From contig NZ_JACSPN010000016.1 in the NCBI RefSeq assembly GCF_015142735.1, positions 1-61,905 on the forward strand: a stretch of DNA of 61,905 nt, written 5' to 3'. The translations under genes and the position numbers were made by a program. Under the pieces are notes generated by a model. It was not told the origin of the DNA and made no database searches. It worked only from the letters and a program-made list of their open reading frames with translations. Origin of the DNA: Oerskovia douganii. GTDB taxonomy: Bacteria > Actinomycetota > Actinomycetes > Actinomycetales > Cellulomonadaceae. Positions 29,966-49,682 of the stretch are shown here, one piece after another (position 1 is the stretch's first letter; every line of letters begins with the position of its first letter).

Positions 29966-30886
29966 TCAGCCCCAGGCGCCGGCGATGAGCAGCATCGTCA
30001 CGAGGAAACCGGTCACCAGGTTGAGCCACAGGAAGCGGCGCCACCCCGCGTTCGCCCGTTCGCAGTCGTCGTCACGGACCGACCAGAACGACGCGACGTT
30101 GACCAGGTATGGCAGGGGCAGCAGCGCGGCGAGCCAGCCCGGCCAGGGGAGCAGGGCCAGCAGCAGCGCGGCGACGAGGTACGCGCCGGCTGCGGCGACG
30201 ACGGTCCGGTGCGCACCGATCACGGTCGCGACCGAACCGATCCCGCCCTCCCGGTCGGCCCGGACGTCCTGCACGGCACCGAACGCGTGCGACGCGGCCC
30301 CCCACAGCACGAAGGCCGCGAGCACGGGCCACACGGTGCGCGCACCGACGTCGGCCCCCACGAGCACGAGCGAGTACAGCAGCGGCCCGACGAAGTGCAT
30401 GGCCGAGGTGAACGAGTCGAGGAACGGGCGCTCCTTGAAGCGCAGCACGGGCGCGGAGTAGGCCACGACGAGGAAGACCACGACGGCGAGCGTCATGTTC
30501 GCGGCGGCGTCGCCCTGCAGGAGCAGCCACGCGAGGAACGGGGCGTTCGTGAGGACGCACGCCCACAGGATCCGTCGGTGGGTGCGTCGAGCCGTCGCGG
30601 GGTCCGCGAGCGCCCCCTCGATCCCGCCCTTGCGCGGGTTGCGCAGGTCGGAGGCGTAGTCGAACACGTCGTTCACGCCGTACATGAGCAGGTTGTACGG
30701 GATCAGGAAGTACAGGGTCCCGACGACGAGCACCGCGTCGACCCTCCCGCCCGTGGCGACGAGGTAGCCCGCCGCGAAGGGGTAGGCGGTGTTGATCCAG
30801 GAGAACGGTCGCGAGGCGGCGGCGATCTCGCGGAGGGTGGCGACCGGTCCCGGCGCCGCCCCGGGCTCCACCACGACCCCGGTCAC
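29966..30886 (-). CDS. crtEb: lycopene elongase (UbiA-family prenyltransferase)
   Basis: A 306-residue polytopic UbiA-type prenyltransferase. It would add C5 units to the ends of C40 lycopene, giving acyclic C50 flavuxanthin-type products before cyclisation. The first Asp-rich motif is NDVFDYASD, followed by the RNPRKGG tag found in lycopene elongases, and the second is DVRADREGG. About eight hydrophobic helices are visible (VVGTLYFLIPYNLLMY, LAVVVFLVVAYSAPVL and others). GTG 30886 overlaps the TGA of crtYf by 4 bases. Last gene of the carotenoid operon. Corynebacterium CrtEb and Micrococcus CrtE2 are the known relatives; the assignment to elongase is strong from context and motif. Confidence 0.92.
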   Translation of the reverse strand: MTGVVVEPGAAPGPVATLREIAAASRPFSWINTAYPFAAGYLVATGGRVDAVLVVGTLYFLIPYNLLMYGVNDVFDYASDLRNPRKGGIEGALADPATARRTHRRILWACVLTNAPFLAWLLLQGDAAANMTLAVVVFLVVAYSAPVLRFKERPFLDSFTSAMHFVGPLLYSLVLVGADVGARTVWPVLAAFVLWGAASHAFGAVQDVRADREGGIGSVATVIGAHRTVVAAAGAYLVAALLLALLPWPGWLAALLPLPYLVNVASFWSVRDDDCERANAGWRRFLWLNLVTGFLVTMLLIAGAWG

Positions 30887-31197
30887 GACTGCCCGCCCGC
30901 GTGCCGGCGTCGGCGGCCGTCCCCGACCCAGGTCCAGACCGCGGGCAGCAGCAGGACCGCCGCGAGCGGGTAGGCGAAGTCCTCGAGGGGTGCTCCGGCG
31001 AGGTAGATGCCCAGGATCTTGTCGGGGGCGTACGTGTAGAGCCCGACGGCGATCATGATCGTGTCGAACACGAGCGTCAGCAGCACCATGACGGCGGCGG
31101 TCCACAGCAGCGGCCCGGCCCGGTGCCTGCGCAGCGTCCAGGCCGTGGCGCCCGCGACGACCGCCAGGACCACGAGGTTCAGCACGATGTTGGTCAT
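30883..31197 (-). CDS. crtYf: C50 carotenoid epsilon/gamma-cyclase subunit (CrtYf-type)
   Basis: A 104-residue membrane subunit with three helices (LNLVVLAVVAGATAWTL, WTAAVMVLLTLVFDTIMIAVG and YPLAAVLLLPAVWTWVG) of the heterodimeric lycopene cyclase family. The signature PLEDF in GAPLEDFAYP and the Y-x-Y-x-x-x-K-I-L-G pattern (YTYAPDKILGIY) are typical. It pairs with the next subunit upstream to cyclise C50 ends. ATG 31197 overlaps the preceding TGA by 4 bases. Whether the ring is epsilon (decaprenoxanthin type) or gamma (sarcinaxanthin type) cannot be read from sequence by eye. Confidence 0.88.
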   Translation of the reverse strand: MTNIVLNLVVLAVVAGATAWTLRRHRAGPLLWTAAVMVLLTLVFDTIMIAVGLYTYAPDKILGIYLAGAPLEDFAYPLAAVLLLPAVWTWVGDGRRRRHAGGQS

Positions 31198-31571
31198 GCG
31201 TCCGCTCCGCTCCGGGGTCCGTCGGCCCGCTCGTGCACCGGGTCCCGCCCTGGGGCGCGTCGTCGGACCCGCAGGTCGAGGAACCGCCACACCAGCAGCG
31301 TGTTGTAGCAGAGCAGCGTGAGGAAGACGGCTTCCTCGACGGGGAGCTCGGGGGCGAGCTGGAGCCCGGTCATGTGGGGCGAGTCTCCGCGCGCGAAGAT
31401 CCCGAGCACGAGGCCCGCGACGTCCCACGCGAGGAAGAACAGCACACCGACCACGAGCGTGATCGCGGTCCGGACCGGGTCCGCCCAGAACGCGAGCCGG
31501 AACCGGCGGTCCAGGACGGCGAGCCCGCCGAGCGAGAGCGCGAGCGCCCCGAGGTACGCGAACCCGATCAC
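31194..31571 (-). CDS. crtYe: C50 carotenoid epsilon/gamma-cyclase subunit (CrtYe-type)
   Basis: A 125-residue membrane subunit with three helices (FAYLGALALSLGGLAVLD, TAITLVVGVLFFLAWDVAG and VFLTLLCYNTLLVWRFL). The conserved block PVEEAVFLTLLCY (P-x-E-E) is the cyclase signature of this subunit, and AWDVAGLVLGIFARGDSPHMTG is the typical second helix and loop. GTG 31571 overlaps the crtI TGA by 4 bases; the downstream subunit overlaps in turn. Both subunits would be needed for activity. Confidence 0.88.
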   Translation of the reverse strand: MIGFAYLGALALSLGGLAVLDRRFRLAFWADPVRTAITLVVGVLFFLAWDVAGLVLGIFARGDSPHMTGLQLAPELPVEEAVFLTLLCYNTLLVWRFLDLRVRRRAPGRDPVHERADGPRSGADA

Positions 31572-33319
31572 GAGGCTGCTCCGCGGAGCCGCTCGGGCCG
31601 ACGGCTCGCCGCGAGGAATCCGGGGCGCAGCGGTGTCGGCAGGGGCCGGGACGACGTCTCGCCCAGGAGCCGCTTGGCGACCAGCTCGGCGCTGATGAGG
31701 CACATCGGCAGCCCGACGCCGGGGGCCGTGCCCGCGCCCGCGAAGTACAGGTTGGCGACCTTCCGCGAGGCGCCCGGGGGCCGGAACATGGCGCTCTGCG
31801 CGAGCGTGTGCTCCATCCCCAGGGCCGTCCCGCGCCACGACGAGAACTCGGTCGCGAAGTGTGCGGGGCCCAGGACCTGCCGGGTCACGACGCGACCGCG
31901 CAGGTCCTCGATCCCTGCCCACGCGCCGACCTGGTCGAGGTACCCGTCGGCGAGCTCCTCGAGCGCGGCCTGCGAGGCGGGTGTGCCGCCGAGCCCGGGG
32001 TCGGCGGGGAAGGGGACGAGGACGAAGAGGTTCTCGTGGCCGGGCGGTGCCGCAGGGTGGTCGACCGTCGCGTCGTCGGTCGCGGAGGTCCGCGAGACGT
32101 AGAGCGAGGCCGGGGTGGGTACGCGCAGCGTGCCGACCTCGCTCGACGGCCCGTGCCCCAGCACGTCCGCGAAGTTGCCCTGCCAGTCCTCGGTGAAGAA
32201 GAGCGAGTGGTGCGCGAGCTCGGGCAGGTCGCCGCGGACGCCCGCGAGGATCAGCAGAGCCGAGATCCCGGGGCCTCGGTCCTCCCAGGTCGACGCGGGC
32301 AGGTCGGCGTACGTCGGGGGCAGGAGCGCGGTCTGGGTGTGGTGCAGGTCGGCGGCCGACACCACGACGTCCGCGGGGACGACCTCGCCGTCCCGCAGCC
32401 GCACACCGGTCGCGACGCCCTGCGTGCGCCGTCGGGACGCCCCGGCCCCCGCGCGGGGCGAGGTGCGGCCGTCGGGCGAGACGGCGGCGGGCGAGACCTC
32501 GATCCCGACGACGTCGCTCGCCGTGCGGATCGTCACGCCCTCCGAGCGGGCGATCTTCTCCATGGCCTCGACGATCGTGTACATCCCGCCGCGCGGGAAC
32601 CGTACGCCCTCGACCAGGTCGAGGTGGCTCATGAGCGAGTACAGCGCGGGCACGCGATAGGGCGAGGAGCCGAGGAAGACGGCGTGGTAGCCCAGGACCT
32701 GGCGCAGGCGGGGGTCGCGGACCCGGCGCTCGACGCGGTCGGCGAGCGAGCGCCCCAGCAGGGCCGCGAGCCGAGGCAGGCGCCGGAGCACCGACGCGTC
32801 GACAGCCCGGTCGGGCCGCTCGAACGTCGTGTACAGGAAGTGGTCGAGCGCGAGCCGGTAGGCCTCGCTGGACTCCGCGGCGTAGGCGCGCAGGCGTTCC
32901 CCGTCGCCCGGCGAGAGCGCGTCGAAACGCGCCCAGTTGGCCTCCGCGTCGCGGGTGACGTCGAGGACGGTCCGGGCGCGCGCAGGGTGGGAGGCGCCGT
33001 CGGGCTGTCCCGTGGGCGTGCCGCGCTCGAAGAAGACGCGGTACGACGGGTCGAGCGGCACCAGGTCCAGGTGGTCCTCGACGCGCTCGCCCAGGAGCGC
33101 GAACCAGTGCTCGAAGACCTCGGGCATGAAGTACCAGGAGGGACCGGTGTCGAACCGGAACCCGTCGACGTCGAGCGTCCCTGCCCGACCGCCCACCCGC
33201 TCGTGGCGTTCGAGGAGCGTCACGCGCGCACCGCCCCGGGCCAGGAGCGCGGCCGTGGCCAGGCCGCCGATCCCCCCGCCCACGACGACGACGTGCGGCA
33301 GGGGTGGTGCGTCGGTCAC
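31568..33319 (-). CDS. crtI: phytoene desaturase (lycopene-forming)
   Basis: A 583-residue FAD-dependent desaturase converting phytoene through four desaturations to lycopene. N-terminal FAD motif: VVVVGGGIGGLATAALLARGG (GxGxxG), followed by LLERHERVGGRAGTLDVDGF. Middle: DTGPSWYFMPEVFEHWF. C-terminal carotenoid-desaturase signature: NLYFAGAGTAPGVGLPMCLISAELVAKRLLG, including the Bacterial-type phytoene dehydrogenase pattern NLYxxGxGTxPGxGxP. It is about 40-60 residues longer than typical CrtI, partly from an inserted Ser/Arg-rich loop (PDGRTSPRAGAGASRRRTQG). GTG 33319 overlaps the crtB TGA by 4 bases. Confidence 0.95.
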   Translation of the reverse strand: MTDAPPLPHVVVVGGGIGGLATAALLARGGARVTLLERHERVGGRAGTLDVDGFRFDTGPSWYFMPEVFEHWFALLGERVEDHLDLVPLDPSYRVFFERGTPTGQPDGASHPARARTVLDVTRDAEANWARFDALSPGDGERLRAYAAESSEAYRLALDHFLYTTFERPDRAVDASVLRRLPRLAALLGRSLADRVERRVRDPRLRQVLGYHAVFLGSSPYRVPALYSLMSHLDLVEGVRFPRGGMYTIVEAMEKIARSEGVTIRTASDVVGIEVSPAAVSPDGRTSPRAGAGASRRRTQGVATGVRLRDGEVVPADVVVSAADLHHTQTALLPPTYADLPASTWEDRGPGISALLILAGVRGDLPELAHHSLFFTEDWQGNFADVLGHGPSSEVGTLRVPTPASLYVSRTSATDDATVDHPAAPPGHENLFVLVPFPADPGLGGTPASQAALEELADGYLDQVGAWAGIEDLRGRVVTRQVLGPAHFATEFSSWRGTALGMEHTLAQSAMFRPPGASRKVANLYFAGAGTAPGVGLPMCLISAELVAKRLLGETSSRPLPTPLRPGFLAASRRPERLRGAAS

Positions 33320-34269
33320 AGGACTCCTCGGGGGTCGGTGAAGCGGGTCGTGCGGGTGGTCGGCAGGTCGCGCCGCAGGGACTCGCGCGCCACCGCGCGG
33401 GCCGCGACCACGAGCTTGACGGGGTCCGGGACGCGGACCCGGGCGCGGAGCAGGTCCGCGGGCGGGGTCGCGGCGAGCCTGCCGAGCAGGGAGTCGTAGA
33501 GCGCGAGCGTCGCGGCGACGGCCATGCGTGCGCGGCGCGGGAGCGCGGGCAGGGCTGCGCGGGCGGCGTCGAGGTCGACGCCGATCTCCGCGAGGATCGC
33601 GTCGACGTCCTCCTGCGTGAGGTCGGCCGGGGTGATCCCGGGGAAGTAGCTGCGACCCAGGTCCTCGTGGTCCGCGCGCAGGTCGCGCAGGAAGTTGATC
33701 TTCTGGAACGCCGCCCCGAGACCGCGGGCGCCGTGCACGACGGCGTCGCTCGCCCGCACGACCGGCTCGCCCGGCCGGCGGCCCGCGTTGAGGAACACGG
33801 CGAGGCACATGAGCCCGACGACCTCGGCCGAGCCGTAGACGTACTGCTCGTAGCTCGCCTTGTCGTGCTCCTGGACCGTGAGGTCCATGCGCATCGAGGC
33901 GAAGAACGGGTCGATCTCCGGGTGCCCGATCCCGGTACGGCGCGCCGTGCGCGCGAACGAGTGGACGACGAGGTTGGTCGAGTACCCGCTCGCCAGGGCG
34001 CGGGCCGTCTCGTCCTCGAGCCGGGTGAGCAGGTCGTCGGCCCCCGCGCCGCGACGCGTGTCGACGACCTCGTCCGCGACCCGCACCAGGCCGTAGACCG
34101 CGTCGATGTCGCGGCGTGCGACGCTTCCCAGCAGCCGGGACCCGAGCCCGAAGGACGTCGAGTACCCGGTCAGCACCGCTCGGCTCGCGCGAGCGGCGGT
34201 GCGGTCGTACAGCATCTGCGACACGAGGGCCTCCCCGGTGATGGTCTCGGACTTCCGGCCGACCGGCAT
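33316..34269 (-). CDS. crtB: phytoene synthase
   Basis: A 317-residue all-helical enzyme that condenses two geranylgeranyl diphosphates to phytoene. First Asp-rich motif DEVVD (in VRVADEVVDTRRG) and second motif DLRADHEDLGRSYFP, both characteristic of squalene/phytoene synthases. The N-terminal STSFGLGSRLL and YGLVRVADE complete the substrate pocket. ATG 34269 lies one base after the crtE stop, so translation is coupled. Its TGA overlaps the crtI GTG by 4 bases. Confidence 0.95.
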   Translation of the reverse strand: MPVGRKSETITGEALVSQMLYDRTAARASRAVLTGYSTSFGLGSRLLGSVARRDIDAVYGLVRVADEVVDTRRGAGADDLLTRLEDETARALASGYSTNLVVHSFARTARRTGIGHPEIDPFFASMRMDLTVQEHDKASYEQYVYGSAEVVGLMCLAVFLNAGRRPGEPVVRASDAVVHGARGLGAAFQKINFLRDLRADHEDLGRSYFPGITPADLTQEDVDAILAEIGVDLDAARAALPALPRRARMAVAATLALYDSLLGRLAATPPADLLRARVRVPDPVKLVVAARAVARESLRRDLPTTRTTRFTDPRGVL

Positions 34270-34270
34270 C

Positions 34271-35437
34271 TCAGGCGACCCGCTCGGCGAACGAGTCGGC
34301 GAGGCCGGTCAGGTACCGGCCCAGCGGTCCGGGCAGCCCGGCCGCCCCCGCGCGCGCCTCGTCGAGGTACCGGGTGACGCTCCCGCGGACGGCCTCGGGG
34401 GCGCCCGTGCGCCGCATGATCTCCCGCACGACGGCGGCGTCCCTCTCGGTGAGGTCGGCCCGTCCGACGTGCTGGTCGAGCAGCACGACGTCGGCGGGAG
34501 CGGCCCGCCGGTACGTGGCGGCCAGCAGCAGCGTGCGCTTTCCCTCGCGCAGGTCGGAGACCGCGGACTTCCCGGTGACCCGCGGATCGCCGAAGACCCC
34601 GAGCAGGTCGTCGACGAGCTGGAAGGCGATCCCCAGCGCGCGACCGCACTCCTCGAGGCGGGCTCGGACCGAGCGGTCCGCGCCCGCGAGGATCGCGCCC
34701 GAGACCAGGGGCACGACGCACGTGTACGTCGCGGTCTTGAGCTCGGCGACCTGCGCGGGGTCGACGTCGAGGGGCGCGCGGAGCTGGCCGGAGACGTCGA
34801 GGACCTCGCCCGCGACGGCCGCCTGGACGGCGCGCACGAGCTGTCGGGTGACCTCGATGCGGTCGCGCGGGTGAGCGGTCGAGGCGAGCACGAGCTCGAA
34901 CGCGCCGCTGATCGCCAGGTCGCCGCCCAGGAGGGCTGCGGCCTGCACCTGGACCTCGGCGCGGGCACCGCCGATCCCCGAGCCCGCGAGACGTGAGCGC
35001 GTGGTCCCGGCGAGGTTCGGACGCCCGCGGCGGGACTCGTCGTGGTCCAGGAGGTCGTCGTGGACGAGCATCGCGGTGTGGAGCAGCTCCTGCGCCGCGG
35101 CCACGGGGACCACGGCGCCGAGGTCGTGGCCGCCCAGGCCCAGGTACGCAGCGAGCGCCAGGCGCGGCCGGACGAGCTTTCCCCCGGCCTGGTCCCCCAG
35201 GTCCTGCCAGAGGTCGACGACCTGTGGCCCCGCGCTGCCGGCACGGGCTGCGGAGCTCGCGAGGTACTGCGCGAGCGTGCCGCGCGTGGCCGTGACCGCG
35301 CGGTCGAGGGCGGCTGCGAACCGGGCGTCGGCGGCGTCCTCGGTGGTGGTCCCCTCGGCGACGGGCGGCGAGGCGGCGAGGCGGCCGGCGGCCGACCGTT
35401 CGGCGACGTCGTCGATGGTCGTGCTCGTTCCGGACAT
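34271..35437 (-). CDS. crtE: geranylgeranyl diphosphate synthase
   Basis: A 388-residue trans-isoprenyl diphosphate synthase supplying GGPP. First Asp-rich motif HDDLLDHDESRRG (DDxxD), second FQLVDDLLGVFGD. Catalytic Lys/Arg around GGKLVRPRLALAAYLGLGG. The N-terminus has a short non-conserved extension. Start ATG 35437 was chosen because AAGGGG lies 7 bases upstream and the conserved MSGTSTT sequence begins there; an in-frame ATG 15 bases earlier has no such site. It heads the six-gene carotenoid operon, whose promoter carries the operators listed at 35454-35489. Confidence 0.93.
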   Translation of the reverse strand: MSGTSTTIDDVAERSAAGRLAASPPVAEGTTTEDAADARFAAALDRAVTATRGTLAQYLASSAARAGSAGPQVVDLWQDLGDQAGGKLVRPRLALAAYLGLGGHDLGAVVPVAAAQELLHTAMLVHDDLLDHDESRRGRPNLAGTTRSRLAGSGIGGARAEVQVQAAALLGGDLAISGAFELVLASTAHPRDRIEVTRQLVRAVQAAVAGEVLDVSGQLRAPLDVDPAQVAELKTATYTCVVPLVSGAILAGADRSVRARLEECGRALGIAFQLVDDLLGVFGDPRVTGKSAVSDLREGKRTLLLAATYRRAAPADVVLLDQHVGRADLTERDAAVVREIMRRTGAPEAVRGSVTRYLDEARAGAAGLPGPLGRYLTGLADSFAERVA

Positions 35438-35453
35438 GGCACACCCCTTCATC

Positions 35454-35467
35454 CTCAGCGTGCTGAG
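35454..35467. promoter_or_regulatory. crt operator 1 (palindrome)
   Basis: CTCAG-CGTG-CTGAG, a 14-bp dyad between the putative transcription start and the crtE ribosome site. It matches the second operator in both half-sites. Confidence 0.65.
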
Positions 35468-35475
35468 TAATTTTG

Positions 35476-35489
35476 CTCAGCATACTGAG
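35476..35489. promoter_or_regulatory. crt operator 2 (palindrome overlapping the -10)
   Basis: CTCAG-CATA-CTGAG, the same dyad as operator 1 centred exactly 22 bp away, i.e. on the same helix face. It covers the -10 hexamer of the predicted crt promoter, the classic placement for a repressor of the MarR or TetR type. No regulator gene is adjacent. Confidence 0.65.
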
Positions 35490-35507
35490 GATCTGACCCG
35501 ATGTCAG
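35479..35507 (-). promoter_or_regulatory. predicted crtE promoter
   Basis: On the minus strand CTGACA (35507-35502) and TATGCT (35484-35479) are separated by 17 bases, a 5/6 match to TTGACA and a good actinobacterial -10. The predicted start near 35472 leaves an approximately 35-base leader before ATG 35437. Confidence 0.6.
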
Positions 35508-35520
35508 CGAAGGACACGGA

Positions 35521-35555
35521 AGAGGGCCTCCCCGCACCAGGCGGGAAGGCCCTCT
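35521..35555 (-). terminator. terminator of galE
   Basis: AGAGGGCCT pairs with AGGCCCTCT, extended inside by CCCGC with GCGGG, for an approximately 14-bp stem. It is 50 bases past the galE stop and isolates the crt promoter from galE transcription. Confidence 0.7.
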
Positions 35556-35572
35556 CACCGGGCGCGACGCCC

Positions 35573-36652: not shown

Positions 36653-37579
36653 TCAGTGGTGGACCGAGGACTCCGTCTCCTGCATCTCGGGCGGCTCGAT
36701 CTGGAACGTGCAGTGGTCGACGTCGAAGTGCCCACCCAGGCACTCCTTGAGCCTGAGCAGCACCTCGGTCCCTCCCCCGCGCGCGATGAGCCCTTCCTCG
36801 ACGACGACGTGGGCGGACATGACCGGGACTCCCGAGGTGATGGTCCAGGCGTGCAGGTCGTGGACCCCCACGACGCCGGGGATCCCCTCCATGTGCGTGC
36901 GCACCTTCTCGAGGTCGACCCCCGCGGGTGTCGACTCGAGGAGAACTGCCGCGACCTCGCGGAGGAGCATGAAGGCACGGGGAAGGATCATGAGGCCGAT
37001 CGCGACGGACGCGAGCCCGTCCGCCCCCGTGAAGCCGACCGCGACGAGGATGCCGGCCACGATCACCGCGACCGACCCGAGCAGGTCGCCGAGCACCTCG
37101 AGGTACGCGCCCCGGACGTTGAGGCTCTCGGCCTGCCCGGCGGACAGCAGGCGCAGGCCGACCGCGTTGGCGACGAGACCGACGACCGCGACGCCGATCA
37201 TGAGTCCGGCCTGGATCTCCGGGTCCGGCGAACGGAACCGCGAGACCCCCTCGACGATCGCGAGCACGGCGACGGTCCCCAGGATGAGCGCGTTGGTCAG
37301 GGCCGCGAGGATCTCGGCGCGCTGCCACCCGAAGGTCCGGGTCGGCGACGCGGGGCGGGTCGCGAGCCAGCTCGCGAAGAGCGCGATCCCGATCCCGGTC
37401 GCGTCCGTGAGCATGTGCCCGGCGTCGGCGAGCAGGGCGAGCGACCCCGAGACCACCGCACCCACGACCTCGAGAGCCATGACGCCGAGCGTGATGCACA
37501 GGACGATCACGAGCCGACGGCGGTGCGCGCCCGTGGCGGTCGCCGCGCCGTGGGAGTGGGAGTGGGAGTGGCCGGTCAT
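36653..37579 (-). CDS. cation diffusion facilitator (zinc-type efflux, CzcD/ZitB-like)
   Basis: A 308-residue inner-membrane divalent cation/proton antiporter. The N-terminal metal-binding tail reads TGHSHSHSHG. Six helices follow. TM2 has the transport-site pattern LLADAGHMLTDATGIGIALF (HxxxD). TM5 reads YLEVLGDLLGSVAVIVAGI, where most CzcD/ZitB members have HxxxD and this one has ExxxD. The C-terminal cytoplasmic domain (GVHDLHAWTITSGVPVMSAHVV) is the copper-chaperone-like fold with its zinc His residues. ATG 37579 overlaps the ArsR-type regulator's TGA by 4 bases, so exporter and sensor form one autoregulated unit. Confidence 0.92.
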   Translation of the reverse strand: MTGHSHSHSHGAATATGAHRRRLVIVLCITLGVMALEVVGAVVSGSLALLADAGHMLTDATGIGIALFASWLATRPASPTRTFGWQRAEILAALTNALILGTVAVLAIVEGVSRFRSPDPEIQAGLMIGVAVVGLVANAVGLRLLSAGQAESLNVRGAYLEVLGDLLGSVAVIVAGILVAVGFTGADGLASVAIGLMILPRAFMLLREVAAVLLESTPAGVDLEKVRTHMEGIPGVVGVHDLHAWTITSGVPVMSAHVVVEEGLIARGGGTEVLLRLKECLGGHFDVDHCTFQIEPPEMQETESSVHH

Positions 37580-37989
37580 CGTGCGCCTCGCGTCGCCTCG
37601 ACGACCCTCTCCGCGTCGGCCAGGATGTGCGCGACCTCAGGACGGGCGAGCCGGTACCAGGACGACCGTCCTTCGCGACGCGTCTCGACGAGGCCCGCCT
37701 CGCGCAGGGTGGCGAGGTGGACGGACACCGTGGACTGGGCGAGCCCGAGCTCGCGGGTCAGGTCGACCACCCGGTGCTCGGCGACCGCGAGGAGATGGAC
37801 GACCGAGAGCCGGTGCGGCTCGGCGAGGGCGTGCAGGAGCCGGGCGACCGCGGTGTGGTCGTGCCCGACGACGGGCGGCGTGCACGGCTGCTGCGGGTGC
37901 TCGGACGCGACCTGGTCGGCGAGACCGTCGGCCGCCGGGCGTCGCGCCCGGAGATGGGTGCGGGTGCTCGTCTCCCTTTTCATCGTCAT
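37576..37989 (-). CDS. ArsR/SmtB-family metal-responsive repressor
   Basis: A 137-residue winged-helix regulator controlling the downstream exporter. Core: LLHALAEPHRLSVVHLLAVAEHRVVDLTRELGLAQSTVSVHLATLREAGL, with recognition helix QSTVSVHLATL. The wing is VETRREGRSSWYRLA. A C-terminal alpha-5-like helix (EVAHILADAERVVEA) and His residues in the N-terminal arm (VVGHDHTAVARLLHALAE) could form the alpha-5 or alpha-3N metal site; the DxHxxx(10)HxxE alpha-5 pattern is not exact. ATG 37989 has no Shine-Dalgarno and lies inside a 37-bp dyad, so it is probably a leaderless message with an operator over its own start. ATG 37983 is an alternative. Confidence 0.9.
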   Translation of the reverse strand: MTMKRETSTRTHLRARRPAADGLADQVASEHPQQPCTPPVVGHDHTAVARLLHALAEPHRLSVVHLLAVAEHRVVDLTRELGLAQSTVSVHLATLREAGLVETRREGRSSWYRLARPEVAHILADAERVVEATRGAR

Positions 37990-44663: not shown

Positions 44664-47600
44664 TCAGCCGCACGTGACCGCCGGGTAGGCCACCTCGTAG
44701 GTCTCGGTCAGCTGACCGCCCTTCGAGGTCGAGGCCACGACCTCGACCGTGCCGGCCGGGATCGACGTCGCACGCGTGTTGAACGACTGCGCCGCGATCT
44801 TGCCGGCCTTCAGGTTCGGGAACGTCTTGCTCCCGTACGCGGTCGTGTAGGCCACGTCGATCGGGCCCGACTCGCCGTTCACACCCTTGACCGCCAGGTG
44901 CACCCGACCGCCCACGCACTGGCCCTTGGCCGAGAGGTCGGTCATGACGACGTCGGGCACGTCCACGCCCTCGACCGTGAGCGCCAGGCGCGTGACCGTC
45001 CCGCTCGGGGCCGCGACGACGTACAGGCCGTACTCGCCGCCCGCCGTCTCCGCCGGGACCGCCACCCCGAGGCTCGCGGCCCCGTTCGTGACCGTGCCCG
45101 TCGCCACGGCCGTGCCCGGGTTCGCCGGGTCGAACGCCGTGCCAGCCGGCACGAGGTACGCCGAGACCCCCGTGTTGGCCGGGCTGCCGAGAGACGTCAG
45201 GTTCAGGCGGGAGACCGTCGCCGTGACGGACTCGCCAGCGGTGACCGTGCCCAGGCCGTCCGCGACCACGCCGCGACGGGCGAAGTCAGGGGCGAGGTCC
45301 GGGTGGGCCTGCAGGTAGGAGATCCACGCGTCACGGTCGATCAGACCCGAGTCGCGCGCGTCCGTGCCCTGCGAGAAGACCCGGAAGTTGTCACCACCCG
45401 TCGCGAGGAACGAGAACGTCGCGACCCGGTAGACCTTCGCCGGGTCGAGGGGCTCGCCGTTGACGAGGACCGACGTGATGTTGTCACCCGGGGTGGCGTT
45501 CACGTCCGCGGTCCTCGCGGTGTAGCTGACGTTGTCCGACAGACCCAGCGCCAGGTACGGGCGCGACGGGCGCGTGCCGTCCGCGTTGGTCTGCCACTGC
45601 TGCTCGAGCATCGTCTCGACCTGCGCGCCCGTGAGGGACACGGTCCACAGGTTGTTGACGAACGGCAGGACCGCGTTCGCCTCGGCGTACGTGATGACAC
45701 CGTCCGCACCGAAGTAGAGCTCGTTGCGGAGACCACCCGGGTTGACGACACCGATGTCGGCACCGCCACGGGCCGGGTCGGCCAGCGTGTCGCGCAGCGA
45801 GTTCGCGACGAGGTTGCCGAGCGTCGACTCCGACGCGCGGTCGTCACGCCCCGTGGACGGCAGCGGGCCGGAGCCCGTGTACTTCCCGTCCACGAACGAG
45901 CCGCCCAGGTAGGCGGTCGTGATGTCGGCCGTGACCGAGCCGACCGGCTGGGCGCCGATGACCTCGGCCTGCGCGAGCGCCGCGTCGACGATCGTCTTGA
46001 CCTCCGCCACGCGGGGGTAGGTCGCGACGAGCTCGCCGGCAGGCGTCGTGGTGCGCTTGACGTTCTGCACCGAGTACTCGGTGACCAGGTCGGTCGCGGT
46101 GTCGAACGACAGGCTCACGTGCCCGATGTTCTCGCCGTAGCTGCCGGTCTGCAGGACAGGACGGGTCCGGTCGGTCCCGGGGATGAGTGCCTCCCACGCG
46201 TACTGCTTGTGGGTGTGGCCCGTGAAGATCGCCGAGACGCGGGCGTCCGTGTCGTTGACGATCTGCTCGAACGCGCCCTGGTGGGCGAGCTCCTGCTCGA
46301 GCGTCGAGCCGTCGGGCGTGCCCGCGCTCGCGCCCTCGTGGTAGAGCGCGACCAGGAGGTCGGCCTCACCGTTCGCGTCGTCGCCGTCGCGCAGCTGCGC
46401 GGCGACGCGGTTCACGGCCTCGACGGGGTCGCCGAAGTCGAGGTCCGCGACCCCGGACGGCGTCACGAGCGTCGGGGTCTCCTCGGTCACGGCGCCGATC
46501 ACGCCGACCGTGACGCCGTCGACGTCGATCACCGCGTACTCCGGCAGGGCCGGGTTCGTGGTGCCCTTGGCGTAGACGTTGGCGCCCAGGTAGGACCAGT
46601 CGGCCGCGTCGCTGACGCGCCCGGTCAGGTCCGCGAAGCCCTTGTCGAACTCGTGGTTGCCCACCGCGGAGGCGGACAGGTCCAGGGCGTTGAGCACGTC
46701 GATCGTCGGCTGGTCGTCCTGCAGCGCCGACGCGAACAGCGACGCACCGATGTTGTCGCCGACCGAGAGGAACGCGGTGCCCTCCGGGTTGGCGGCACGC
46801 AGCTGCTCGACGGTCCCGGCGAACGCGACCGTGTTCGCGTCGATCCGACCGTGGAAGTCGTTGATCGCGAGCAGGTCGATCTCCTTGACCCCACCCGGCT
46901 CCTCACCGCCCAGCTCGAGGCCGACGACGATCGGGTCGTGGTCGGACGAGCGGAACGCCGTGGTGTCGTACAGGTTCGACACGTTGTAGTTGTAGCGGCT
47001 GTACTCGTTCGCGATGGGCTCGACCGAGTTGATGTTCCAGATGTCGGTGTCCGTGACCGCAGCGGCGGCACCGGGCGAGGCCAGCACGTGGTCGAGCGAG
47101 CCGACGAGACCGTCGAACAGGTACGTCTCCTTGCCCGTGGTGGGGCCGAGGTCCACGTAGCCGACGTCCGTGAGGACCTTGATCGGGTCCTCCTGGGCGT
47201 AGGCGTTGAAGTCGCCCGCGAGCAGCACCTTGTCCGTGCCCGCGGCCGTCGACACCTGGTCCGCGAACGCGGCGAGCGCCGTCGCCTGCTTGACGCGCGA
47301 GGCGTTCGAGGCGCCCTGCCCGTCGCCCTGGTCGGCGTCCGCCCCCGAGCCCGAGCCCTTGGACTTGAAGTGGTTCGCGATGACGACGAAGTCCGTCGAG
47401 GCGTCTGCCCCGGCGACCCGGAAGGTCTGGGCGAGCGGCTCACGGGCGTTGTCGAAGGCCGCGACGTCGTGGATGACCGAGGCCCCCACGGTCTCGACGG
47501 CCGCCGGACGGTAGATGAAGGCCGTCCGGATGACGTCCTCCGAGGCGGGCAGCGCGGCCGGGGAGGGCACGAACGCCCAGGTCCCGGCGCCGGCCGCGGC

Positions 47601-49406
47601 GTTGAGGCGGTCCGTGAGCGTCGAGAGCGCGGCGTCGCGGTTCTTGCCGAACACCTTCGAGTTCTCGATCTCCTGGATCGAGACCACGTCCGCGTCGAGA
47701 GCGTTGATCGCCGCGACGATCTTGGTCTCCTGGCGCTGCAGGTTCGCCGCGTTCGCGGCGCCGCGGGCGTCGCAGCCCGTGCGCACCGTGATCGGGTTGC
47801 CCTCGCGGTCCGTGTAGAACTGGCACCCGCTGAGCTGGTCGCCCGTCGTGGTGAAGTAGTTCAGGACGTTGAACGCGGCCACGGTCACGTCGCCGCCCAC
47901 GGCCTCCGGGGCTGCGGTGCGCGTGTCCGCGAACGTCGCGGGCTGGACCGCGGCCGCGTTGGCGGGGGTCAGCTCCGTGACGGGCTGGAAGTTCCAGCCG
48001 TCGAACCGGTAGTCGAGGACCACGGGCGAGGTGAACGTCGCGAGCGCCCCGACGCGCACCGGGGCGCCGCCGGTCAGGTACGGCAACGGCTTGGCCTTGT
48101 TGGCGGCGTTGTTGAAGTTCGTCGTCGCGCCGTCGTCGAGGTTGATCCGGCGGGCGTTCGCGTCGGCGACCGCGGCCGCGGCCTCCGCGCTGCCCGGGCG
48201 ACCGACCGACGTCGGCTGGCGCAGCGGCTCGGTGCCGCTCGCCAGGACGACCGACCCGTAGTAGTTCGTGTCGTAGTTGTCGGCGACGACGTAGTCACCG
48301 GCGGGCTGGACCAGCATGCCCTCGAGCTTCTCGCGGTCCGCGGCGGTCGCGGGGTAGGCGACGTTCGCGGGCTTGGCGACCTCGGCCGGTTCCGTCAGGA
48401 CCTTCCAGCCGGTCGCCGCGGGCGTGACCTGGGTCAGCCCGAAGTACTCCGAGACGACGCCCGTGACCTCGACGTGCTGGCCGACCTGCAGCGCGGACGC
48501 CGCGGCCTTCGAGTACACGAAGAGGCCGTCCGACGCGGTGTGCGTCGCGAGGTCCAGGTCTCCCCCCGACCCCGCGGTCTGGATGTAGAGGCCGTCGAAG
48601 CCGCCCGTGGGGTACGTGGCGGTCACGACGCCGCGCGTCGTGACGGTCTGGCCCACGAAGGGGCTCGCGTCGCCCGTGCCCTGGATCTCGGCGATGGTCC
48701 TGGCCGTGCCCGGCTCGGGGTCCGGGCCGGGACCCGAGCCGCCACCGCTGTTCTGGGGCGTGACCGTGGTGCTGACCGCGAAGTCCTTGGAGTTGTCGTC
48801 CGTGTCGCCGCCCGATGCGCGGTTGAGCGAGCTCGGCACGTTGTTGGCCGTGCCCGCAGGGGCCGCGGCGGTCTCGAACGTGTTGGACGTGCCGTAGCCC
48901 AGGAGGTCCACGACCTGCGGGTTCCCCACGACCGAGCCCGGCGTGAGCGTGATCGCCGAGGCAGACCTGACCAGCGCCAGCGTCCCGTTCTGCCCCTGCG
49001 GCGCGATGGTCCCCGTCGCGTCGGGCGTCGGGAGCGCGGCACCGTTGGCGCCGTTCGAGGCCCCCTGCACCAGGTAGTAGCCCCCGGCCTTGATGGTCCC
49101 CGTGAGCGGTACGACGCCGTTCGAGGCACCTGTGCCCGTCGCGGAGCGGTACTGGACGGACCAGCCCGTGAGGTCGATGTCGGCCGACGTCGGGTTGTAC
49201 AGCTCGACGAACTTGTTGAGGTACGGGGCGTTGGCGCTGCCGCCGTTGAGGTAGGCCTCGTTGATGACGACGGACGACCCGTCGACCGCAGCAGATGCCG
49301 TCCCCGCGGCGACCGTGCTGAGCGCCGCCGTGGCGACGAGCGACGCCGACAGGGTGGCCGCGACCACGCCTCTCCTGCGTCGGGACTGATGGTGACTACC
49401 GATCAC
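44664..49406 (-). CDS. giant secreted nuclease/5'-nucleotidase (LTD + EEP nuclease + UshA-like)
   Basis: A 1580-residue secreted protein that probably degrades extracellular DNA/RNA and releases phosphate. Signal peptide about residues 10-40 (ending TASAA). A lamin-tail domain (about 42-150, NEAYLNGGSANAPYLNKFVELYNP) is followed by an OB-fold (about 220-320, IAEIQGTGDASPFVG). An endonuclease/exonuclease/phosphatase domain (about 430-800) has VAAFNVLNYF, DVVSIQEIENS, the AGDFNAY and SSDHDPIVVG blocks, as in ExeM/NucH nucleases. A 5'-nucleotidase (about 815-1330) has LLAINDFHGRID, FLSVGDNIGAS and AVGNHEFDKG, then its C-terminal domain. Ig-like beta sheets end the protein, without a sortase motif. 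GTG 49406 follows AAGGAG at 5 bases. Presumably co-regulated with phosphate starvation. Confidence 0.9.
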   Translation of the reverse strand: MIGSHHQSRRRRGVVAATLSASLVATAALSTVAAGTASAAVDGSSVVINEAYLNGGSANAPYLNKFVELYNPTSADIDLTGWSVQYRSATGTGASNGVVPLTGTIKAGGYYLVQGASNGANGAALPTPDATGTIAPQGQNGTLALVRSASAITLTPGSVVGNPQVVDLLGYGTSNTFETAAAPAGTANNVPSSLNRASGGDTDDNSKDFAVSTTVTPQNSGGGSGPGPDPEPGTARTIAEIQGTGDASPFVGQTVTTRGVVTATYPTGGFDGLYIQTAGSGGDLDLATHTASDGLFVYSKAAASALQVGQHVEVTGVVSEYFGLTQVTPAATGWKVLTEPAEVAKPANVAYPATAADREKLEGMLVQPAGDYVVADNYDTNYYGSVVLASGTEPLRQPTSVGRPGSAEAAAAVADANARRINLDDGATTNFNNAANKAKPLPYLTGGAPVRVGALATFTSPVVLDYRFDGWNFQPVTELTPANAAAVQPATFADTRTAAPEAVGGDVTVAAFNVLNYFTTTGDQLSGCQFYTDREGNPITVRTGCDARGAANAANLQRQETKIVAAINALDADVVSIQEIENSKVFGKNRDAALSTLTDRLNAAAGAGTWAFVPSPAALPASEDVIRTAFIYRPAAVETVGASVIHDVAAFDNAREPLAQTFRVAGADASTDFVVIANHFKSKGSGSGADADQGDGQGASNASRVKQATALAAFADQVSTAAGTDKVLLAGDFNAYAQEDPIKVLTDVGYVDLGPTTGKETYLFDGLVGSLDHVLASPGAAAAVTDTDIWNINSVEPIANEYSRYNYNVSNLYDTTAFRSSDHDPIVVGLELGGEEPGGVKEIDLLAINDFHGRIDANTVAFAGTVEQLRAANPEGTAFLSVGDNIGASLFASALQDDQPTIDVLNALDLSASAVGNHEFDKGFADLTGRVSDAADWSYLGANVYAKGTTNPALPEYAVIDVDGVTVGVIGAVTEETPTLVTPSGVADLDFGDPVEAVNRVAAQLRDGDDANGEADLLVALYHEGASAGTPDGSTLEQELAHQGAFEQIVNDTDARVSAIFTGHTHKQYAWEALIPGTDRTRPVLQTGSYGENIGHVSLSFDTATDLVTEYSVQNVKRTTTPAGELVATYPRVAEVKTIVDAALAQAEVIGAQPVGSVTADITTAYLGGSFVDGKYTGSGPLPSTGRDDRASESTLGNLVANSLRDTLADPARGGADIGVVNPGGLRNELYFGADGVITYAEANAVLPFVNNLWTVSLTGAQVETMLEQQWQTNADGTRPSRPYLALGLSDNVSYTARTADVNATPGDNITSVLVNGEPLDPAKVYRVATFSFLATGGDNFRVFSQGTDARDSGLIDRDAWISYLQAHPDLAPDFARRGVVADGLGTVTAGESVTATVSRLNLTSLGSPANTGVSAYLVPAGTAFDPANPGTAVATGTVTNGAASLGVAVPAETAGGEYGLYVVAAPSGTVTRLALTVEGVDVPDVVMTDLSAKGQCVGGRVHLAVKGVNGESGPIDVAYTTAYGSKTFPNLKAGKIAAQSFNTRATSIPAGTVEVVASTSKGGQLTETYEVAYPAVTCG

Positions 49407-49499
49407 GCTGACTCCTTCGTGTCGTGGCCGGGTTCCCGGCGCGCCCGCCTCGGCGCGGGTGGCGCAGGTGCAGGCTCTGGAATCCAACAGCAGGCTGAT

Positions 49500-49558
49500 G
49501 AACGCGTGGTGTCCGGCCGGTCTCCACCGGTCGAACGGCCACGTCCCCCCTGACGAAC
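49500..49558 (-). promoter_or_regulatory. GTTC repeats in 11-bp phase upstream of the nuclease gene
   Basis: On the minus strand GTTC occurs at 49558, 49536 and 49503, all spaced by multiples of 11 (22 and 33 bp): units GTTCGTCAGGG, GTTCGACCGGT and GTTCATCAGCC. Intermediate positions lack GTTC. This resembles a degenerate PHO box, similar to the more perfect array at 16608-16640. Confidence 0.3.
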
Positions 49559-49682
49559 GGCTCCTGCGGCCGGGGTGCGCGACGTCGTCGTGCGCTGACC
49601 GGTCGGCGGGCACCGTCGCCCGTTCGCCTCGCACGCTATCTCACCCAGCGGACACCGCGAACTTTCCGGGGCGCCCGGGGTC

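Follow-up and report, generated by a model that had tools for sequence, protein, structure and literature searches.

The closest described systems are those of CrtR from Corynebacterium glutamicum and its orthologues. CrtR (PMC5401885, PMC7432914, PMC6739363) is a MarR-type, autoregulated repressor of carotenoid (crt) genes, with mmpL as a partner gene and an operator placed over promoter elements. These features have counterparts in Oerskovia douganii, where the repression, autoregulation and operator are predicted. In contrast to CrtR, the MarR protein of Oerskovia belongs to a different subfamily, with a different predicted operator and a gene unlinked to crt. In Mycobacterium kansasii, light induces the crt, mmpL and tspO genes together (PMC9861118), and the same kinds of genes are the targets predicted here, a likeness of described gene kinds rather than of compared proteins. 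Unlike the arrangement here, crtR of M. kansasii lies within the crt locus, and tspO lies in a photolyase locus (PMC9861118). In other bacteria crt genes are controlled by the LitR/CarH light repressors, which differ from the Oerskovia MarR in being B12-based members of the MerR family (mentioned in PMC6739363). Within the literature covered, which left subscription journals mostly outside, we found no description of the CTCAG operator discussed below or of its regulator, including under the exact string CTCAGCATGCTGAG. Our analysis puts forward a specific regulator and operator and a regulon of three targets, all predicted, for carotenoid control in Oerskovia and relatives that have no CrtR beside crt.

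The window, by which we mean the whole stretch of 61,905 nucleotides analysed, carries a crt operon on the minus strand. Its first gene, crtE (34271-35437; GGPP synthase type, Pfam polyprenyl_synt), has its start best placed at 35437, and is followed by crtB, encoding phytoene synthase (33316-34269; Pfam SQS_PSY), crtI, encoding phytoene desaturase (31568-33250; assigned from Pfam Amino_oxidase/NAD_binding_8 and position, start not fixed), a probable crtYe (31194-31655; an ORF with no Pfam match, start not fixed), crtYf, encoding a lycopene cyclase subunit (30883-31197; Pfam Lycopene_cyc), and a prenyltransferase gene of the UbiA family (29966-30883; Pfam UbiA). From position and general knowledge, we take the 31194-31655 ORF to be the crtYe lycopene cyclase subunit, and the UbiA gene is presumably of the crtEb type. 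A strong, terminator-like hairpin (35521-35556, minus strand, recognised by fold only) separates the crt promoter from an upstream galE-like gene of the Epimerase family (Pfam), suggesting that the operon probably relies on the crtE promoter; in all seven genomes of the genus the hairpin differs in sequence and is similar in fold. The initial annotation had reported that no regulator lies beside the cluster, and indeed none adjoins crt, with the nuance that an ArsR-type gene (37576-37989) lies about 2 kb away, where it adjoins a cation-efflux gene and not crt. This transporter and regulator pair occupies positions 36653-37989, next to the galE-like gene.

Upstream of crtE we located two exact copies of CTCAG-N4-CTGAG, at 35454-35467 (CTCAGCGTGCTGAG) and 35476-35489 (CTCAGCATACTGAG), with the centre-to-centre distance of 22 bp that had been claimed for them. 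The coordinates also confirm that one copy covers the -10 of a CTGACA-N17-TATGCT promoter, and that the other lies downstream of the predicted start. Along the minus strand, the -35 hexamer CTGACA (35502-35507) is followed after 17 bp by the -10 hexamer TATGCT (35479-35484) within the distal palindrome (CTCAGTATGCTGAG), and after a further 8 bp by the proximal palindrome (CTCAGCACGCTGAG), which lies just 3' of the predicted start, expected near 35472, and precedes the ribosome site and the ATG at 35437. Both palindromes are predicted operators. The genome contains seven exact sites, against five for a reversed control pattern; a single site proves little by itself, and single-site counts are uninformative unless conservation is added. 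A pair this close is expected, by our estimate, about 0.0007 times per genome. The twin arrangement, strictly defined as exact half-sites 4-14 bp apart, was present in all seven genomes of the genus, that of the window included, at a spacing of 21-22 bp, and in none of the 143 other genomes of a 150-genome family sample. No second site with up to two mismatches was found within 60 bp at any of the 23 crtE loci of other genera. The twin palindromes are real, and not a product of chance. The supposed conservation of the pair must be divided, as it is the distal site, with the -10 inside it, that is kept across genera, and the twin is confined to the window's genus; of the two copies, the distal one is ancient and the proximal one was added in this genus.

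A comparison of crtE upstream regions among relatives had been proposed as a check, and it favoured the operator: among 30 crtE loci, the 27 scoring at least 297 bits all carry the site (26 exact, one with one mismatch), and the three lower-scoring loci do not. With the exact site at a split crtE in genome G074, the site is present at 28/28 operons of the window's type (type A), 27 of them exact. The first central base is T at all 28 crtE sites and C at all 90 marR sites described below. The crtE centres read TATG in 23 cases, TACG in four and TAGG in one, giving TATGCT or a near form, and the marR centres read CATG in 89 of 90. An NTGNCN hexamer is found at a distance of exactly 17 bp in 18/27 crtE promoters, against a baseline of 2% and with zero or one occurrence at each of the other spacings from 10 to 25. 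The invariant T and the -35-like hexamer at an exact spacing suggest that the -10 and the operator at crtE are probably one element. Of the 215 upstream regions scanned for the palindrome, 18 contain the reversed motif with up to one mismatch, and one-mismatch sites are therefore weaker evidence than exact ones. The genome-wide count of seven sites against five is what a reading of the palindromes as chance matches or as a leader RNA hairpin could draw upon. That reading is extremely improbable, given that the site is conserved across genera at three promoters while the flanks diverge, that loci of a second crtE type (discussed below) retain it solely if no CrtR-type gene lies adjacent, and that the distal site overlaps the -10 and lies 5' of the predicted start. 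Three congeners (G073, G085 and G059, at loci L099, L102 and L103) have no crtE at this position; there, the twin operator directly precedes crtB, and the first crtE codons are kept.

The initial annotation had further predicted a regulator acting in trans, of MarR or TetR type, and had proposed a search of the genome for such a gene whose own promoter contains the site. The search identified a marR gene of 150 residues on another contig (C6:10962-11411), unlinked to crt, divergent from an MMPL transporter gene and followed by a lipoyl-ligase-type gene, with an exact palindrome (C6:10918-10931) that ends 30 bp before the GTG start. The product is a MarR-family protein by PF12802 (MarR_2; 59.8 bits, cut-off 27) and PF01047 (42.7 bits, cut-off 24.6), ranking first among the genome's matches to the former and ninth for the latter. 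Its closest named relatives, 93% identical, are from Oerskovia species. The N-terminal region is conserved and rich in Trp and His, and the protein of the window's genome contains no cysteine, which argues against thiol sensing. Within the family sample, 92 of 150 genomes encode this MarR (at least 136 bits), and the site is present in all 90 readable marR upstream regions (79 exact, 11 with one mismatch), the other two being cut by contig ends. It is likewise present at 80/80 named marR loci (72 exact, eight with one mismatch), many of them from the same species and overlapping with the family sample, and an mmpL homologue lies beside marR at 78 of these 80, orientation not counted. MarR proteins like the window's also adjoin mmpL at 20/20 loci from other families of the order, where the palindrome occurs with up to one mismatch at 12 and with up to two at 16, compared to zero and three for the reversed motif. 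The linkage of regulator and operator is thus established at the level of sequence, and the palindromes are very probably operators of this unlinked MarR, which would control crt and a TspO-like gene and, through the mmpL-marR promoter, itself.

Another DNA-binding protein might recognise the palindrome everywhere, with marR merely one of its targets. Sites in a gene's own promoter suggest autoregulation without proving it, and genome G108 has an exact crtE site and no detected marR orthologue. We nevertheless consider this highly unlikely, as none of the marR upstream regions examined lacks the site, and as all 25 genomes without marR also lack the site at the TspO-like gene.

A second alternative, to which we give very little credence, is that an orthologue of the known CrtR, a MarR protein released by GGPP, binds the palindromes, which would make this plain CrtR regulation. 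CrtR represses crt in C. glutamicum and adjoins mmpL in M. luteus and P. chlorophenolicus (PMC7432914), and the marR gene here also faces mmpL, thereby showing the divergence from crt, idi or mmpL that is a trait of CrtR-type genes. We at first assumed identity with CrtR since both face mmpL, and this was overturned by low identity, by the tree and by the mmpL loci of another family, f6. For reference we used CrtR of P. chlorophenolicus rather than that of C. glutamicum; its gene, or that of a very near strain, was located with the published primers, of which both promoter primers and the forward primer match, as does the reverse one apart from its stop, and encodes a 176-aa MarR protein (Pfam). 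The window's MarR shares 26% identity with this CrtR over 87 residues, too little to qualify as its orthologue, and the best CrtR match in its own genome reaches only E 1e-5. In a tree of 66 MarR sequences, midpoint-rooted and with several long branches, 20 rows form a CrtR clade, supported at 100/100, that leaves out the window's MarR; the clade comprises P. chlorophenolicus CrtR, seven mmpL-linked f6 proteins and, from the window's family, the 12 best CrtR-like proteins. Order-level rows that group with the window's MarR do not form one clade apart from a peroxiredoxin-linked group. The best order-level matches within f6 were rejected as orthologues, being another MarR group, most of them seen beside a peroxiredoxin-like gene. 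Divergence from that gene was observed at L401-L405, L407, L409, L411, L414 and L415 (one confirmed by Pfam).

Operator sequences also differ between the two systems. The central TTAA of the 15-bp CrtR motif, as described in PMC7432914, is absent from the operator here, CTCAGYATGCTGAG. The crtR-mmpL intergenic region of P. chlorophenolicus contains the inverted repeat TATCTC-N7-GAGATA, and nothing nearer to the CTCAG palindrome than three mismatches. Among the mmpL loci read in f6, seven of ten have a CrtR-like gene, two (L434 and L436) have none, and L435 has a different MarR-like ORF. The repeat is exact in the crtR-mmpL intergenic region of L454 and in three of the seven others, with one mismatch in three and two mismatches in one (L454, L421, L422, L433 and L437-L440 in all), making it a candidate CrtR operator, with clearer symmetry than the published TTAA motif. 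The regulator proposed for the window is therefore of the MarR type, as a candidate, and the earlier description of it as a MarR- or TetR-type carotenoid regulator needs the correction that its subfamily is distinct from that of CrtR.

Some relatives carry a second crtE type (type B), about 40-45% identical among the matches listed. We examined 20 type-B loci of marR-bearing genomes, comprising the 19 highest-scoring of those listed and G072, which was added for its CrtR-type neighbour. A CrtR-type gene lies within the fetched 1.4 kb at 12 of these loci (11 without G072), which have no CTCAG site with up to one mismatch, apart from an isolated one-mismatch match in L475, at a distance of 1.37 kb. 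The remaining eight have no CrtR-type gene, and carry the site before a NUDIX gene (Pfam; seven exact, one with one mismatch) that we take to be idi. The exclusion between operator and CrtR, 8:0 against 0:12, is established in these loci (Fisher p 7.9e-6, ignoring shared ancestry). A CTAG-N5-CTAG repeat, found at 10 of the 12 CrtR-bearing loci (L467, L470, L473-L475, L478, L479, L483, L484 and L486) and at none of the eight CTCAG loci, is the probable CrtR operator in the window's family. No CrtR-type gene was found in the 1.5-kb flanks of 27 type-A crtE genes. According to PMC6739363, crtR adjoins crt in Isoptericola, Sanguibacter, Jonesia and Cellulomonas gilvus, in agreement with the CrtR side of the type-B split, and pigment is light-induced in the first three.

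The third predicted target is a TspO-like membrane-protein gene (C44:94649-95482, 278 aa), with an exact site (C44:95501-95514) that begins 18 bp before its start. Orthologues of the protein score 15.9-21.1 bits against PF03073 (cut-off 24) in three of four scanned, with no match in the fourth, and no TspO was among the solved-structure matches of the protein. Across the 95 of 96 genomes with a match that could be counted, one with fragments being left out, the site occurs with up to one mismatch in 44/70 marR-bearing genomes and in 0/25 without marR (Fisher 6.1e-9, ignoring shared ancestry). The target is lineage-specific, as 26 of the 70 marR-bearing genomes have no site there. A TspO-like homologue (49% over 178 aa) adjoins the CrtR-type gene in L421 which, together with the light stimulon described for M. 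kansasii (PMC9861118), suggests that different MarR proteins govern similar kinds of output.

These comparisons are best read as follows: where CrtR is missing, crt is controlled in trans by a second MarR subfamily, which is probably a long-standing mmpL autorepressor. We infer MarR binding, repression and an inducer. If it acts as MarR repressors do, the protein would sit as a dimer on the distal site, over the -10 of the crtE-B-I-Ye-Yf-Eb promoter, and keep RNA polymerase out. In the window's genus, a second dimer could bind two helical turns downstream on the same face, strengthening repression. Repression would extend to the TspO-like gene and to the mmpL-marR promoter of the regulator itself, and a signal, plausibly an isoprenoid or light/photosensitiser stress, would release the protein. 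We would put at about an even chance the broader conjecture that this subfamily, ancestrally an order-wide mmpL autorepressor, replaced CrtR by gain of CTCAG operators at crtE or idi promoters, perhaps several times. If true, this would be a non-orthologous regulator swap in which the output set (crt, MmpL and TspO-like) was left unchanged, and the swapped-in MarR may respond to another signal, for example a tetrapyrrole or membrane isoprenoid bound in its Trp/His-rich N-terminal region. The 20-locus exclusion supplies a natural set of promoters on which to test, one at a time, how a regulator is replaced while the pathway stays fixed, and the repeated appearance of mmpL and TspO-like partners suggests that these membrane proteins share a poorly understood role in pigment physiology.

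Four of the seven exact genome sites matter here, two at crtE and one each at marR and the TspO-like gene. The other three, on contigs C5, C9 and C11, look like chance or local sequence and may include further targets; two of their 14-mers recur in congeners. Comparison with 11 congener loci gave no match to the C11 site. Next to the C5 site is an inverted repeat, and a single congener locus (L448, flank 92.5% identical) retains the site; the exact C9 site (G000:C9:54374-54387, CTCAGTCCACTGAG) has a 14-mer that recurs in two congeners. Elsewhere in the window, a 1656-aa ORF (44664-49634) combines lamin-tail, endonuclease/exonuclease/phosphatase, metallophosphatase and 5'-nucleotidase domains.
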